From contig JACRBO010000015.1 of assembly GCA_016219235.1 (NCBI GenBank), forward strand, positions 1 to 6,129: a DNA stretch of 6,129 bases, read 5' to 3'. The stretch comes from Chloroflexota bacterium (lineage in GTDB: Bacteria > Chloroflexota > Anaerolineae > Fen-1058). A program made the translations under genes and the position numbers. This document shows, piece after piece, positions 1,361 to 6,129 of the stretch; positions within the stretch are counted from its first letter, which is position 1; every line of letters begins with the position of its first letter. Under the pieces are notes generated by a model, which was not told where the DNA came from, did not search any database, and saw only the letters and a list, made by a program, of their open reading frames with translations.

Positions 1361-1449
1361 ACGTGTTTGTTATCGCGGGTGCATTGTTTCTCATCGGCAC
1401 GGTGGCGGTGTATACGTGGTTGACGCGGCGCGAAGCCCCTAAGGCGTAA
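1357..1449 (+). CDS. Small single-helix membrane protein, 30 aa
   Basis: The protein is MNVFVIAGALFLIGTVAVYT followed by WLTRREAPKA. Residues 3 to about 22 form one hydrophobic helix, and a short basic tail (RR, K) suggests the C-terminus faces the cytoplasm. It begins at the ATGA shared with the GNAT stop, has a good Shine-Dalgarno GGGAGGA six bases upstream, and ends with TAA. Its last 11 bases overlap the 3' end of the opposing lipoprotein gene. I recognise no family. The RBS, the overlap repeating the cysS-GNAT junction and the membrane-helix composition support it as real, but an ORF this short can be chance. Confidence 0.5.
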   Translation: MNVFVIAGALFLIGTVAVYTWLTRREAPKA

Positions 1450-2242
1450 TCAACTGCGGCCGTCCCGCCGAATCATACTCATACACATAGGTGCGGCCTT
1501 CGATCAAGTTACCGGCTTGATCGAAGGCGTATTTGCTGCCTGAGCCGGTGAATTGGCTGTTCGCCAACGCGAGCGCCACTCCGCCCCGCTCGATCTTCTC
1601 CGCCCGTTGAACCGCATCGAAAACCAGAAACATCACGTCATACGTTTGCAGCGCGATCGGCCCGGCGCGTGTCCCATCGATGGGGATGGCATTGTACTGA
1701 GCCACAAAATCCGCCGTTGATGGCAATGAGTTTGGATCAGGCACGTTGCTCACAAACGTGAGTCGATCATCGGGCCAATTCCGCGCCACACTGCGTCCAA
1801 ACCGGAACTCATTCAACCCGAACGGACACACGCCCACCGGCCACGTGCTTTGGAATGCCATCAACGGCAGTCCAGCGGCGCAATAGTCACTTAACACCGC
1901 ATCGGTGGTCATAGGCCGATAATGTCCAATCACCACCACGACCTGCGGATCGATGATCAACTGTCGGGCCGCTGTGAGCGCGCGATCATCTTCACCCCGA
2001 TCATCCAGCGCCACCAACTCGATGCGATAGCCGTTCACGCCGCCCCGCGCATTGATCTCGCGAATCGCCAGCCGTGCCGCGTAGATCGCCTCATAGCCGA
2101 TGACGCGATAACGCCCCTCGAATGGCGCGACGAGACCGATCTTGATCACGGGTTGGGTTGAAGCGCACGCCGATAAAACGAATGAGAGACAGAGAGATAG
2201 AGCGACAAAGAGAGACAGAGTGACTCGTGGCCTTCTCTCCAT
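1439..2242 (-). CDS. LIV-type (Peripla_BP_6) substrate-binding lipoprotein, apparently lacking one lobe
   Basis: This is a predicted extracytoplasmic solute-binding lipoprotein of the branched-chain amino acid (LivJ) type. I chose the ATG at 2242 (267 aa) because it gives a clean lipoprotein signal: MERRPRV, a hydrophobic stretch, and lipobox L23-S-A-C26. A GTG at 2269 overlapping the mltG stop (TAGTG) would add nine charged residues and is an alternative. KIGLVAPFEGRYRVIGYEAI, INARGGVNGYRIELVALDD and the VVVVIGHYRPMTTDAVLSDY stretch match the first part of lobe 1 in LivJ-like proteins. After about residue 152 the protein jumps to LTFVSNVPDPNSLPSTADFV and TYDVMFLVFDAV, which match the second part of lobe 1, and then to the usual C-terminal strand. 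Roughly 100-130 residues expected in between, corresponding to lobe 2, are absent, with no frame break. No permease or ATPase genes are adjacent. The frame ends in TAG. It lies 26 bases after mltG, so co-transcription is likely. Confidence 0.85.
   Translation of the reverse strand: MERRPRVTLSLFVALSLCLSFVLSACASTQPVIKIGLVAPFEGRYRVIGYEAIYAARLAIREINARGGVNGYRIELVALDDRGEDDRALTAARQLIIDPQVVVVIGHYRPMTTDAVLSDYCAAGLPLMAFQSTWPVGVCPFGLNEFRFGRSVARNWPDDRLTFVSNVPDPNSLPSTADFVAQYNAIPIDGTRAGPIALQTYDVMFLVFDAVQRAEKIERGGVALALANSQFTGSGSKYAFDQAGNLIEGRTYVYEYDSAGRPQLITP
1496..1528. repeat. Perfect 13-bp inverted repeat within the lipoprotein 3' end
   Basis: Arms GCCTTCGATCAAG (1496-1508) and CTTGATCGAAGGC (1516-1528) pair perfectly around a 7-base loop. 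It lies within the coding sequence for FDQAGNLIEG, and 47 bases beyond the stop of the convergent plus-strand operon. There is no T-run on either side, so it is not a standard intrinsic terminator. It may still act as a pause or bidirectional end signal between the converging operons. Confidence 0.75.
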
Positions 2243-2267
2243 CTCTCTTTCTCTCCGCCTCTCATTC
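2180..2267. repeat. Imperfect 23-base inverted repeat flanking the lipoprotein start
   Basis: Arms 2180-2202 and 2245-2267 match at 20 of 23 positions as reverse complements, with a 42-base spacer. Both arms end in GAATGAGAG on their purine strand, and the rest is GA-rich and of low complexity. In the minus-strand transcript the purine arm includes the ribosome-binding region of the lipoprotein gene, and the pyrimidine arm encodes its signal-peptide core. The ATG at 2242 sits in the loop just beside the stem. Confidence 0.65.
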
Positions 2268-2268
2268 A

Positions 2269-3408
2269 CTACCGGCATTCGTTGGCGATTTGCTCGTCCA
2301 GCGTCCGGGCAAACATGTGCGTGCCATCCTGCGAGCACGAGGCGCGGAAATAGTAGAAGTCGTGCTTCTCAGGATTGATGGCGGCCTTGATCGACGCCAA
2401 CGCGGGGTTGTCGATCGGGCCGGGAGTCAGGCCGGGATTGCGATACAGGTTATACGGCGAATCCACGCCCTGATAATCGTCTTGCGTGATCTGCGGCCAC
2501 CACGTATTCGGATCGCGCGTGTTGCCCAATGCATATTGCACTGTGGGATCGGCATCCAGCGCCATGCCATCGGTCAGGCGATTGAAGTACACGCCCGCGA
2601 TGGTGGGCCGCTCGGCCTCGACGGCGGCTTCACGCTCGACGATGGACGCCAGCCGGATCGCGTCGAACAGCGTGCGGCCTTGCGATTGCAAATCGGCGCG
2701 CATCTGCACCGTCACCTGCTTCTCGAAGTTGCGCAGCGCCGTGGCGATGATCTCGCGCGCGGTCACTTTGTCTTTGGCAATGCCATAGGTATCGGGGAAG
2801 ACGTAGCCTTCCAGCGACGCGCCCGCCGGCAGATCATTCAAGAACGAGAACTGCGCTTTCCATTGATTGGCGTTTTGCAGCAACACCAGAAACTCCGTGG
2901 CGCTGATGGGTACCTGCGCGGCCAGACTGTCGGCCAGTTCCTCGATGCGACGCGCCTGCGGAATGCGCACTTGCACTTCCGCAATGCGGCCTTCTTGCAG
3001 CGCCTGCGCCAACTGCTGCACGTTCATAGCCTGCGTCAGGGTAAAATCGCCGGCTTCGATGCCCGCATCCAGGCCGTTGTATTGCAGATACCGCTTGAAC
3101 AGATCGGGGTCTTTGATCAGGCCCATCGATTGCAGGCGATTGGCGATGGCGGTCAGACTCTCACCCGATTCGATCTTGAAATCGATCGGGGTGGTATCAC
3201 TCCCGCTGGCCGATGTTAAGTCGCTCGCCCGGAAATTCAGGTAGATCGACAGCACCAACTCTTGCAGGTCTTTAGGCGCGGCCAGTTGAATGCCGCCGCC
3301 GAGGTTGCCGCCGCGGCCCATCGTCAGCGTGACCACGGTCGCCATTGCCCCGCAGACCAAAGCAATGGTAATGAGGAAAACAATCAGGCGTTTCGTTTTT
3401 CGTTTCAT
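2269..3408 (-). CDS. mltG: Endolytic murein transglycosylase MltG (YceG-like)
   Basis: MltG is an inner-membrane lytic transglycosylase that cleaves nascent glycan strands and is proposed to terminate peptidoglycan chain growth. I start at the ATG at 3408 (379 aa) because MKRKTKRLIVFLI gives a basic head followed directly by a membrane helix (residues about 7-30). A TTG ten codons upstream is possible but starts inside the direct repeats. A LysM-like segment, DFKIESGESLTAIANRLQSM, begins near residue 76. The catalytic domain includes LEGYVFPDTYGI, then LASIVEREAAVEAERPTIAG with the predicted catalytic glutamate at 258 (E218 in E. coli). It continues with FNRL, DADPTVQYALG, SPYNLYRNPGLTPGPIDNPA and YYFRA near the end, all family hallmarks. 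Length is normal. No clear Shine-Dalgarno precedes the ATG. The frame ends TAG immediately followed by an in-frame TGA. Confidence 0.96.
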   Translation of the reverse strand: MKRKTKRLIVFLITIALVCGAMATVVTLTMGRGGNLGGGIQLAAPKDLQELVLSIYLNFRASDLTSASGSDTTPIDFKIESGESLTAIANRLQSMGLIKDPDLFKRYLQYNGLDAGIEAGDFTLTQAMNVQQLAQALQEGRIAEVQVRIPQARRIEELADSLAAQVPISATEFLVLLQNANQWKAQFSFLNDLPAGASLEGYVFPDTYGIAKDKVTAREIIATALRNFEKQVTVQMRADLQSQGRTLFDAIRLASIVEREAAVEAERPTIAGVYFNRLTDGMALDADPTVQYALGNTRDPNTWWPQITQDDYQGVDSPYNLYRNPGLTPGPIDNPALASIKAAINPEKHDFYYFRASCSQDGTHMFARTLDEQIANECR

Positions 3409-3430
3409 AGGTAAGCAGGCAAGGAAACCA

Positions 3431-3478
3431 GTAGACAAGTAGGAAAGTAGACAAGTAAATAAGTAGACAAGTAGGCAA
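3431..3478. repeat. Three tandem 16-bp direct repeats upstream of mltG
   Basis: Units at 3431-3446, 3447-3462 and 3463-3478 each begin with the invariant 11-mer GTAGACAAGTA and differ only in the last five bases (GGAAA, AATAA, GGCAA). The array fills most of the 83-base gap between the ruvX stop and the mltG ATG. It therefore lies in the transcribed leader of mltG, starting 22 bases before the ATG. An array of identical cores could be a protein-binding site or a slippage-prone repeat. Confidence 0.85.
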
Positions 3479-3491
3479 GTTCAGACTTTGG

Positions 3492-3968
3492 TCATTTGTC
3501 ACACTTGCCCTGGTAGGCAGTGCCAGGGTTTGTCATTTTTAATTGGTCATTGTTCATTGCTAATTGTTCATTGAGATAGTCTTGCAGGATGATGGCCGCC
3601 GCCGCCGAATCGATTTCGCCTTTGTCACGGACTTTGCGCGATGAGGCGGCCAGGCGTTCCTGGGCGTCTACCGATGAAAAGCGCTCGTCCCAAAACTCGA
3701 TCGGTAGTTGCAGCGCGGCGTGCAACTCATCGGCATACCGGCGGATGCGGCGAGCCTGAAAGCCCTCTTCGTTGCGCAGCGTCTTCGGCAGTCCAGCGAT
3801 GATGCGGTCGATGTGTTGTTCAGCACAGATCGCGCCCAGGCGCGCGAAGTCCTCTTTTTTCGAGGCGCGCTTGACGGTCAGCAGCGGCCGCGCCAGCGTT
3901 TTGGTTTCATCGCTGAGCGCCACGCCGATGCGTTTCTCGCCGATGTCCAATCCCAACCATCTGCTCAT
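3492..3968 (-). CDS. ruvX: RuvX/YqgF-family Holliday-junction-resolvase-like nuclease with repeat-derived C-terminal tail
   Basis: The protein has an RNase H-like fold and belongs to the YqgF/RuvX family, linked to pre-16S rRNA 5'-end processing and Holliday-junction cleavage. All signature blocks are present: WLGLDIGEKRIGVALSD with D8, AGLPKTLRNEEGFQARRIR (58-76), WDERFSS with E95 (93-99), and KGEIDSAAAAIILQDYL with D120 (116-132). D8, E95 and D120 form the expected acidic active site. Family members usually end soon after the DSAAAAIILQDYL helix. Here residues from about 132 to 158 are an added tail, and most of it is encoded by a heptanucleotide repeat array and a short palindrome. The ATG at 3968 has no strong Shine-Dalgarno. 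It overlaps (ATGA) the stop of a short open frame read from upstream. mltG follows after 83 bases. Confidence 0.95.
   Translation of the reverse strand: MSRWLGLDIGEKRIGVALSDETKTLARPLLTVKRASKKEDFARLGAICAEQHIDRIIAGLPKTLRNEEGFQARRIRRYADELHAALQLPIEFWDERFSSVDAQERLAASSRKVRDKGEIDSAAAAIILQDYLNEQLAMNNDQLKMTNPGTAYQGKCDK
3508..3528. repeat. Short palindrome at the ruvX 3' end
   Basis: CCCTGG (3508-3513) pairs with CCAGGG (3523-3528), and two more pairs (one T-G, one A-T) close a 5-base loop. It lies inside the C-terminal extension of ruvX, beside the heptad array. There is no U-tract on the transcribed (minus) strand, so I do not call it a terminator. Confidence 0.5.
3528..3576. repeat. Heptanucleotide tandem array (STRR-like), seven units
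   Basis: Read on the plus strand in steps of seven from 3528, the units are GTTTGTC, ATTTTTA, ATTGGTC, ATTGTTC, ATTGCTA, ATTGTTC and ATTGAGA. Two further related heptads, TTTGGTC and ATTTGTC, lie at 3487-3500 across the ruvX stop. The pattern resembles the short tandemly repeated repetitive sequences described from cyanobacterial genomes. It is AT-rich against a GC-rich background and encodes the end of RuvX (residues about 132-147). Confidence 0.8.
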
Positions 3969-4020
3969 ATCGTTTGAGTGTCCACCGAAATTCCGGCCCG
4001 TCGCAGCGCCTGTTGCGCGA

Positions 4021-4171
4021 GAGATTCCTCAGTCGCGGAAAAGAACGCTCCTGCTCAGAAACTCACGTGCTCACAGCGCCGTCCCCGGCGCGGATCGCCG
4101 CCGGGGACGGCGGCTGGAGCATTTCTGCGGTCACGCACCACGCGGCGCCTGGTGGCGGTCTCGGAATGACA
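4021..4171. repeat. REP/MITE-like intergenic element with central palindrome
   Basis: The element runs from GAGATTCCTC (4021-4030) to CGGAATGACA (4162-4171). From memory, these two boxes normally sit close together in a common dispersed bacterial repeat; here about 130 bases separate them. The interior holds a perfect 14-bp inverted repeat at 4077-4112. No convincing coding sequence crosses it, and no transposase is present. It fills most of the gap between the baseplate-J-type gene tail (ending 4178) and ruvX (starting 3968). Assignment as a mobile or dispersed element is inference, because other copies are not visible in this window. Confidence 0.5.
4077..4112. repeat. Perfect 14-bp inverted repeat
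   Basis: Arms CGCCGTCCCCGGCG (4077-4090) and CGCCGGGGACGGCG (4099-4112) flank the 8-base loop CGGATCGC. The hairpin would be very stable in RNA from either strand. Without a following T-run it is not a standard intrinsic terminator, but it could pause transcription or protect a 3' end between the upstream gene and ruvX. Confidence 0.85.
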
Positions 4172-4177
4172 CGGCGA

Positions 4178-4348
4178 TCAGCCGGCCGGATTCACATCAG
4201 TCTGGATACGGATGCTCAACCACGGCAGCCACGGGAACCAATCGGGCGTTACCGTGATCACCGGATCAGATTTCAGCGGCAGCGCTTGCTTCAGCAGATC
4301 GGTCGCTTCGGCAATGGACTTGCCCGTGATGCGGCGCGTGGCGCGACT
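4178..4348 (-). pseudogene. In-frame C-terminal remainder of the baseplate-J-type gene, after an amber codon
   Basis: Beyond the TAG at 4349-4351 the same reading frame stays open for 56 codons and then stops at TGA 4178-4180. The translation includes SRATRRITGKSIAEATDLLK, then a QALPLKSDPVITVTP stretch and WFPWLPWLSIRIQ. This looks like real protein: a GKS-x-x-EA-x-x-LL-x-x-LPL-x-SDP helix-and-turn, then an aromatic-proline end. I recall this kind of ending from intact homologues in Chloroflexi but cannot verify it here. There is no frameshift and no good internal start, so this is the lost or read-through C-terminus of the upstream gene rather than a separate gene. A single-base sequencing error is the main alternative. 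Confidence 0.7.
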
Positions 4349-5722
4349 CTATACCAGATCGGCCGCCGCATAGCCCACGCCCTGCATCGCGAATTGAAAC
4401 AAGGTGTCGGAACCTTCGACCGGCGCTGCTCCACCACGCTGAAAACTCAGTCCTTCGGGAATCAGTTGATAGTTCTCCGGCGCTTGGTTCTCCATTGCCG
4501 TGAAGACCAATCGGTTGGCGTCTTCACTGGAGACTTTCACGGCCGTGTATTCGACGCGCATCAACAGCGAGAGTTGATCGGCCTGTTCGGTGATTTCGTG
4601 ATCGAAGGTTTCTTCCAGGATGGTACCGCTTAGCGATTCGGCGATGACGAATTCGCCCGGCCCCAGTTCGGCCTGCAACTGCTGCACAGCAGCCTCGCGC
4701 AATTTGGGCGTGATGGCTTCGCGCGCCGTGTCGCGATCTTCGGACGCGACCGCGGCCACTTCACGCTCGCCGCCGCCGGTGAGCGGTTCGGGATTGCTAA
4801 TACGCACGGCCAGCGCGGCCACGCCTTCGACTTCGTTGATGAAGTTGGCGGGCACATTGCCCGACGCGCCCAATTCCACGGCCTCCACCTTGCCCTGCGC
4901 CTGCGCACCGATGCCGCCCGGCACCTGCACGTCTTCCGTCAAGATGAAGCGCGTGGCCTGGCTGGAGGCGGTCGTGCGCACCGCGGTGCCTTTGCCCACG
5001 GTGAAGGGCGTGTTGAGTTGATTGACGAAGATGACGGTACCGCCGGCGCGTGACTCCGGGACGCCGCGCTTGCCCGTCGTGGGCACCGTAATCAACTGGC
5101 GCACGATCGTGGTGATCTGCGTCGCGGGGACGCGGGCGGTAAACGGATCGATCTCGGTGGCCTCGGGATCGGCGATGATGTTGATCGTCACGATGAGGCG
5201 GGCGGAGCTGGGTACCAGCGTGATTTCGGCCTGGGGAATGATCACCAGCGCCGCGCCTGCCAGCACTGCTAACACGATCAGCACGAGGGCGTATTTGAAG
5301 ATGCGCCACGCGGGATGCCGCCGGCGCGCTTGCGCGTGCACGTCCGATTGATCGCGTTCGACGGCGGCGCGATGCGCCTCGCGCGTTTTGCGCGCGGAGG
5401 GCTGCCACGGCTTCTCTTCTTCGTCGTCTTCGTCGGGCAGTTTGTGCCAGCGGGTTTTGCGCTGGGCCGCCTCAACCGATCGGAACACGGGCAGGCCCGC
5501 TTCGCGCACTGTCGTGCGCACTTCGCCTTCCGGCGAGACGATCGCCACTTCGATGTGCTGCACTTCGGCAAAACGGCGCACGATGTGCACATCGACCGTC
5601 TGGCGCAGCACGGGCGCATCCCAGGGCACGACCAGGATCACGCGCGGACTGTTGGCCGTGGCCAGTCGATCGCGCACGGTGTGAATGTCGTCGTGTTCGT
5701 CCAGTTCGATAATCGCGTCCAT
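4349..5722 (-). CDS. Membrane-anchored baseplate J/gp47-domain protein, ending at a probable premature amber
   Basis: The ATG at 5722 gives 457 residues. I prefer it to a GTG at 5869 because the longer version would run through the predicted promoter and leader hairpin. Residues about 1-90 form a cytoplasmic domain (HDDIHTVRDRLATANSPRVI, VDVHIVRRFAEVQHIEVAIV, REAGLPVFRSVEAA). A very charged linker follows (DEDDEEEK, then many R and H). One membrane helix lies at about 141-163 (YALVLIVLAVLAGAALVIIP). The external part carries the baseplate J-like pattern at about 227-296: AGGTVIFVNQLNTPFTVGKG, later EAVELGASGNVPANFI. In phage this fold builds baseplates. Here, with no tail genes nearby and with a membrane anchor, an envelope role is more likely; the function is unknown. 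The frame stops at TAG but continues in frame for 56 plausible codons, so the full protein would be about 514 aa. It is probably the first gene of the minus operon. Confidence 0.85.
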   Translation of the reverse strand: MDAIIELDEHDDIHTVRDRLATANSPRVILVVPWDAPVLRQTVDVHIVRRFAEVQHIEVAIVSPEGEVRTTVREAGLPVFRSVEAAQRKTRWHKLPDEDDEEEKPWQPSARKTREAHRAAVERDQSDVHAQARRRHPAWRIFKYALVLIVLAVLAGAALVIIPQAEITLVPSSARLIVTINIIADPEATEIDPFTARVPATQITTIVRQLITVPTTGKRGVPESRAGGTVIFVNQLNTPFTVGKGTAVRTTASSQATRFILTEDVQVPGGIGAQAQGKVEAVELGASGNVPANFINEVEGVAALAVRISNPEPLTGGGEREVAAVASEDRDTAREAITPKLREAAVQQLQAELGPGEFVIAESLSGTILEETFDHEITEQADQLSLLMRVEYTAVKVSSEDANRLVFTAMENQAPENYQLIPEGLSFQRGGAAPVEGSDTLFQFAMQGVGYAAADLV

Positions 5723-5841: not shown

Positions 5842-5880
5842 TATTGTAGGGTTGCCCAAAGAATCTCACGAGGTGAAGTC

Positions 5881-6129
5881 ATGGAAACGGTGCCGATCCC
5901 TCTGTCTAAATCACTTTACGATTTGGTCGCGCGGCGAGCCGCTGCGCGCCACCAGGCACCGGCCCGCCTCGTGGAAGAAATCCTGAGCGAGGAACTGATG
6001 CCTCAACATCCTTACGTGGAGGTTATCGACAGCCGCAGTGGCTCCCGGCCCGTCATTAGAGGCACACGGATAGGCATTGATGTGATCGTGGGGTATAGCC
6101 AGGCCGGATATCCGCCGCGTGACATCGTG
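5881..6129 (+). CDS. DUF433-family (VapB-like antitoxin) protein, 3'-truncated by window edge
   Basis: Eighty-three codons are visible and the frame is open at the window end. Residues about 1-38 (METVPIPLSKSLYDLVARRA, then QAPARLVEEILSEEL) look like a short ribbon-helix-helix-type segment. From residue 43 the DUF433 pattern begins: HPYVEVIDSRSGSRPVIRGT, RIGIDVIVGYSQAGYPPRDI. Many DUF433 proteins are thought to be antitoxins paired with PIN-like (DUF5615) nucleases encoded directly downstream; any such partner lies outside this window. A Shine-Dalgarno AGGTGA (5871-5876) four bases before the ATG fixes the start. The gene is divergent from the minus operon. Function is inferred from the family only. 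Confidence 0.85.
   Translation, partial: METVPIPLSKSLYDLVARRAAARHQAPARLVEEILSEELMPQHPYVEVIDSRSGSRPVIRGTRIGIDVIVGYSQAGYPPRDIV

Follow-up and report, generated by a model that had tools for sequence, protein, structure and literature searches.

An out-of-place amber codon within a two-codon patch of a conserved Baseplate_J-type gene from Anaerolineae

The J gene, its neighbours and its family

The window analysed here is a stretch of 6,129 nucleotides from a Chloroflexota contig (JACRBO010000015.1). Its minus strand carries a gene for a membrane-anchored, Baseplate_J-type protein (the J gene; 4352..5722 for the frame before an in-frame TAG), followed by ruvX of the Holliday junction resolvase family (3492..3968; PF03652, 143.2 bits; TIGR00250), by mltG for an endolytic transglycosylase (2269..3408; PF02618, 257.8 bits; TIGR00247), which ends naturally at a TAG followed by a TGA, and by a gene for an ABC-type substrate-binding lipoprotein (1439..2260; PF13458, 95 bits), which ends naturally at a TAG. 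The J gene likely starts at the ATG at 5722, which matches the starts of the relatives and gives 457 codons up to the TAG; the GTG at 5869 that opens the longest open reading frame is not preferred. As described in the first-pass annotation of this DNA, the TAG at 4349..4351 ends this minus-strand reading frame, and the same frame runs on unchanged for 56 codons (4181..4348) to a TGA at 4178..4180, encoding the peptides quoted there. Read through the stop, the J protein of the window comprises 514 residues, the TAG column included, and the normal length in the family is about 511 residues.

The order J-ruvX-mltG-lipoprotein is the same in the window and in the loci L001 to L003. At further loci of the class, where the flanks span about 1.5 kb or less, ruvX lies downstream of the J gene in 20 of 26 cases and mltG in 17 of 26. 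Pfam searches of the neighbours of the J gene returned ruvX, YceG/mltG, Peripla_BP_6, cysteinyl-tRNA synthetase, GNAT and DUF433, and recognised no phage tail or baseplate gene beside it in the window; a phage contractile-tail gene cluster is ruled out by these non-phage neighbours. The J gene was matched in 353 of the 396 genomes of class Anaerolineae. Because of this wide occurrence and the conserved J-ruvX-mltG neighbourhood, we regard it as a core-like chromosomal gene of Anaerolineae and not as a prophage gene. The proximity of mltG suggests a role of the J protein in the cell envelope.

Some further features were observed around these genes. The spacer between the J gene and ruvX contains dispersed repeats (3993..4124), with stretches that match many places in the genomes G002, G004 and G005, and a 23-nt inverted repeat whose arms (4068..4090 and 4099..4121) are 83% complementary. 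Tandem repeats of the TAATTG/TCATTG type in the ruvX-mltG spacer (3499..3573) also match many places in the genomes of relatives, and a AGTAGACA-type tandem array lies directly upstream of mltG (3408..3480). The start of a DUF433-type gene, recognised by Pfam, is found at 5881..6129, where it is cut by the end of the window; genes of this type are often antitoxins.

The J protein matches the Pfam family PF04865 (Baseplate_J) with 24.2 bits, for a cut-off of 21.1, and the PHROGs family phrog_6 (baseplate wedge subunit) over the J domain only, while a search of NCBIfam gave no match. Searching the sequences of the PDB with the J protein returned four baseplate chains (9g8s_C, 9euf_C, 8v3w_E and 8kea_b; E-values from 4.9e-5 to 0.087), with all matches confined to one domain of about 100 residues. 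Its similarity to the J proteins that form the baseplate wedge in contractile tails (PF04865, phrog_6) is restricted to this domain, at positions 221-318 of the family profile. In contrast to those proteins, the family in the window has a hydrophobic segment before the domain (residues 144-162 of the J protein) and a C-terminal tail after it, and its genes are chromosomal and lie beside ruvX and mltG.

Using the 457-residue protein without the tail as query, we retrieved 97 proteins at E<=1e-3 among 7,996 scored candidates, the window's own protein included, with 100% query coverage and identities of up to 91%. The relatives that carry names come from Thermoflexales and Anaerolineae metagenome-assembled genomes, and the name baseplate J/gp47 family protein is attached to P0011 and P0063. 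The family seems little studied, and a literature search of limited reach found nothing bearing on this case. A scan of contigs for relatives of the J gene returned none with a single protein and four with an alignment. The genome closest by mltG DNA (G005, 92%) gave no match to the J protein, and the contig of L004 (87%) ends before the site of interest and so does not cover it.

Conservation of the 56-codon tail

At 60% GC, a run of 56 codons stays open by chance with a probability of about 0.16. The openness of the tail frame alone would be weak evidence for a coding function; its conservation, as judged from the alignments, is decisive. Aligned to the corresponding tail of L001, the tail of the window scores 216, whereas the best of 1000 shuffles reaches 45. 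When the read-through protein, with an X at the stop, was aligned to the relatives (own protein excluded), the tail was found in 93 of 96. In 86 of these 93 it ends at the same column, that of the TGA, which is the natural end of the gene, and in the others within -3 to +10 columns. Of the three relatives lacking the tail, P0021 and P0056 are without the C-terminal part, and P0059 leaves the frame earlier. In a 54-sequence alignment, the tail represents 11% of the length but contains 6 of the 25 invariant columns.

By this conservation and by the gap between the alignment score and the shuffles, the tail is a genuine protein sequence. The ADLV position, at which all homologues would stop if it were the natural end of the gene, is ruled out as such, since the 93 relatives continue through the tail. 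A search with the 56-residue tail alone gave no candidate for a separate orphan tail reading frame. We conclude that the 56 codons are part of the gene and that the stop is misplaced.

Within the Anaerolineae/Thermoflexales baseplate J/gp47 family, the protein of the window is homologous from its start to the TAG, and its tail is homologous as well, with 53 of 56 residues identical to those of P0004. It differs from the family in that its tail, although kept in the DNA, lies behind a TAG as sequenced, at a column where the tail-bearing relatives read a sense codon, and in that a Val stands where near relatives have Asp, Asn or Glu.

Comparing tail and body among the seven nearest relatives, the identity is higher in the tail for four of them (P0004, with 94.6% in the tail and 90.5% in the body, P0007, P0008 and P0009) and lower for the other three (P0003, P0005 and P0006), most clearly for P0006 (75.0% versus 87.9%). 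When the DNA of the window is compared with that of L001, L002 and L003, the differences lie mainly at third codon positions, in the tail and the body alike. For L001, they amount to 16, 8 and 24 at codon positions 1, 2 and 3 in the tail and to 116, 72 and 218 in the body, counts that mostly reflect the time before any stop, these loci being distant. The tail thus appears to keep the codon-position pattern of coding DNA under selection. An old pseudogene is rejected: there is no scattered decay, a single mild unseen residue (column 346) occurs outside the affected site, and none occurs in the tail. As far as the alignments tell, either there is no real stop or the stop is recent.

A two-codon patch on a single contig

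The earlier reading had singled out the TAG, but the gene contains two adjacent abnormal codons, GTA TAG, the first being a Val codon directly 5' of the stop (4352..4354). At this column (457), all 52 covering relatives among P0003-P0055 differ from the window, with Asp in 38, Asn in 8 and Glu in 6. At the next column, that of the TAG, a sense codon is found in 93 of the 93 relatives with a tail, mostly for an aliphatic residue: Val in 31, Ile in 19 and Leu in 2 of the 52 covering sequences among P0003-P0055, and Val, Ile, Leu or Met in 80 of all 93. The 18 nearest relatives all have Asp or Asn followed by Ile, Val or Leu at columns 457 and 458. Across the 514-residue read-through, residues unseen in P0003-P0055 occur at columns 346, 457 and 458 only. 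The departure at column 346 is mild (Val in the window, mostly Leu in the relatives), and the number in the tail is zero. By the same count, the near relatives P0003-P0009 carry 3 to 14 unseen residues each, scattered along the sequence. On this count we do not consider the copy of the window decayed, and its two serious departures are adjacent.

The patch requires at least two substitutions when all residues seen in the family are allowed as the starting point, and three, within six bases, when the first residue is taken as Asp or Asn. Because two adjacent codons are abnormal, a simple one-base change is insufficient: on the alignment columns, neither a single-base nonsense mutation nor a one-base miscall explains the patch, whereas a short multi-base patch would. 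Three explanations had been offered for the TAG, namely a nonsense mutation, a base-call error and readthrough. The first two survive, although not as damage at a single point, and readthrough has gained no support. No template for the patch emerged, as the 15 surrounding bases, with up to three mismatches, matched only their own site in the window. An imperfect direct repeat of 12 bases (11/12) has its copies 60 bases apart, one of them directly before the patch; it was rejected as a template, since the patch finds no match in the bases that follow the other copy.

The stop is also isolated within the class. In a class-wide search with P0005 as reference, where the TAG column corresponds to residue 455, 149 of the 150 matches listed reach residue 496 or beyond, and the sole exception, from G004, ends at residue 236 at the end of its contig. 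Three of the listed matches were flagged with an internal stop, which in each is the last or next-to-last codon, after the tail; as natural ends, they were rejected as rival truncations. A truncation at the TAG column was not seen elsewhere among the relatives and the listed class matches checked; the truncated form of the J gene is represented by a single sequence on a single contig, that of the window.

Possible origins of the stop

A general reassignment of TAG to a sense codon in the genome of the window is the least probable of all the readings weighed here. It would account for a TAG inside a conserved frame, and the TAG of mltG is indeed directly backed by a TGA, as already read from the sequence. 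Against it, mltG and the lipoprotein gene stop at TAG at the C-terminal ends of their families: residues 1-378 of the 379 of MltG align to L001, L002 and L003, and residues 1-272 of the 273 of the lipoprotein align to L001, ending at the C-terminus of the relatives. Among five genomes from the order, four have a match to the release factor RF1 above the family cut-off, and in the fifth a contig end interrupts the match. No CTA anticodon was found by ARAGORN among the 31 distinct tRNA genes (30 loci) of G004, which is an incomplete draft. The first-pass annotation had judged general recoding unlikely on the grounds of the natural TAG ends, and the release factor and tRNA searches in relatives agree with it. 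A TAG was seen inside the release-factor match of G003, upstream of the switch to a second frame, in what is presumably the known prfB frameshift. The tRNA search also returned a tRNA-Sec in G004 (L059, 1233-1330), which points to a possible use of selenocysteine at TGA in this lineage.

Readthrough or suppression of the TAG at some level, yielding short and full-length products, is very unlikely. The tail is intact, in frame and free of unseen residues, and a read-through product would resemble the family protein. However, the relatives carry a sense codon at the site, so that the stop is not conserved as a signal, and all covering near relatives have Asp, Asn or Glu where the window has Val just before the stop, a change that selection for readthrough would not need. 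The predicted RNA fold of the 99 bases running downstream from just before the stop is no better than that of shuffled sequences (z 0.53), and Rfam gave no match in the window. The presence of RF1 in the order and the tRNA set of G004 speak against suppression as well. Programmed readthrough is not supported, given the sense codon in relatives and the lack of an RNA structure signal. We consider even more remote the idea of a leaky real stop that would give mainly a tail-less J protein and a little full-length protein, the release of the tail tuning an envelope function of an operon of J, ruvX and mltG.

With high confidence, the patch is either an artefact or a very recent mutation. We assign a probability of about one half to its being an assembly artefact, which makes this reading slightly likelier than a real change. 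In this view, the J gene is an ordinary full-length chromosomal gene of a Thermoflexales-like member of the Chloroflexota, class Anaerolineae, whose reading is broken in this contig alone by a short local patch over two adjacent codons; the remainder of the frame looks intact, and so does its 56-codon tail. The patch would have arisen during metagenome assembly or consensus calling, for example through a wrong join or a mixed consensus between strains, and we infer that it is absent from the organism. Our preference for an artefact rests on the near-universal occurrence of the gene, the strong conservation of its tail, the restriction of the variant to one contig and the tightness of the patch in an otherwise intact frame. 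A relative with a broken frame, P0059, occurs in the same data set. Against an artefact, we noticed no further frame break along the 6.1 kb of the contig, which is therefore not of generally poor sequence. In addition, the pattern of the patch would not result from two independent miscalls of single bases, a genuine complex mutation would leave the same picture, and the lower tail identity for three of the seven nearest relatives leaves room for some relaxation.

At somewhat less than even odds, the patch would instead stem from a complex mutation of several bases that arose very recently in a single strain, leaving a protein 56 residues short and being too recent for the tail to have decayed. 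The J gene would then probably be inactivated or impaired. The sequence as given does carry the stop in a contig with no other noticed frame break, and the clustered change fits a single complex mutation event. A recent event also fits with a tail that is free of unseen residues and, for four of the seven nearest relatives, as well kept as the body. However, loss should be selected against in a gene found in most genomes of the class and with nearly a quarter of its invariant columns in the tail. Moreover, all matches listed for the class extend beyond the site, apart from the one that stops at a contig end, and the variant is confined to one contig.

Genes interrupted by nonsense codons and stops introduced by assembly in metagenome contigs are a known kind of case, and the present finding is an ordinary one of this kind, with little biological novelty. 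It is a useful warning that, when a stop in a metagenome contig is followed by an intact frame, the reads should usually be inspected before one turns to readthrough or recoding. If the stop were real, this natural truncation of a nearly universal and apparently unstudied membrane protein of Anaerolineae would give a hint on the role of the tail. As in the known cases, the window has a conserved frame, one stop and an intact frame downstream; it differs from them in that the damage goes beyond a single base and spans two adjacent codons.
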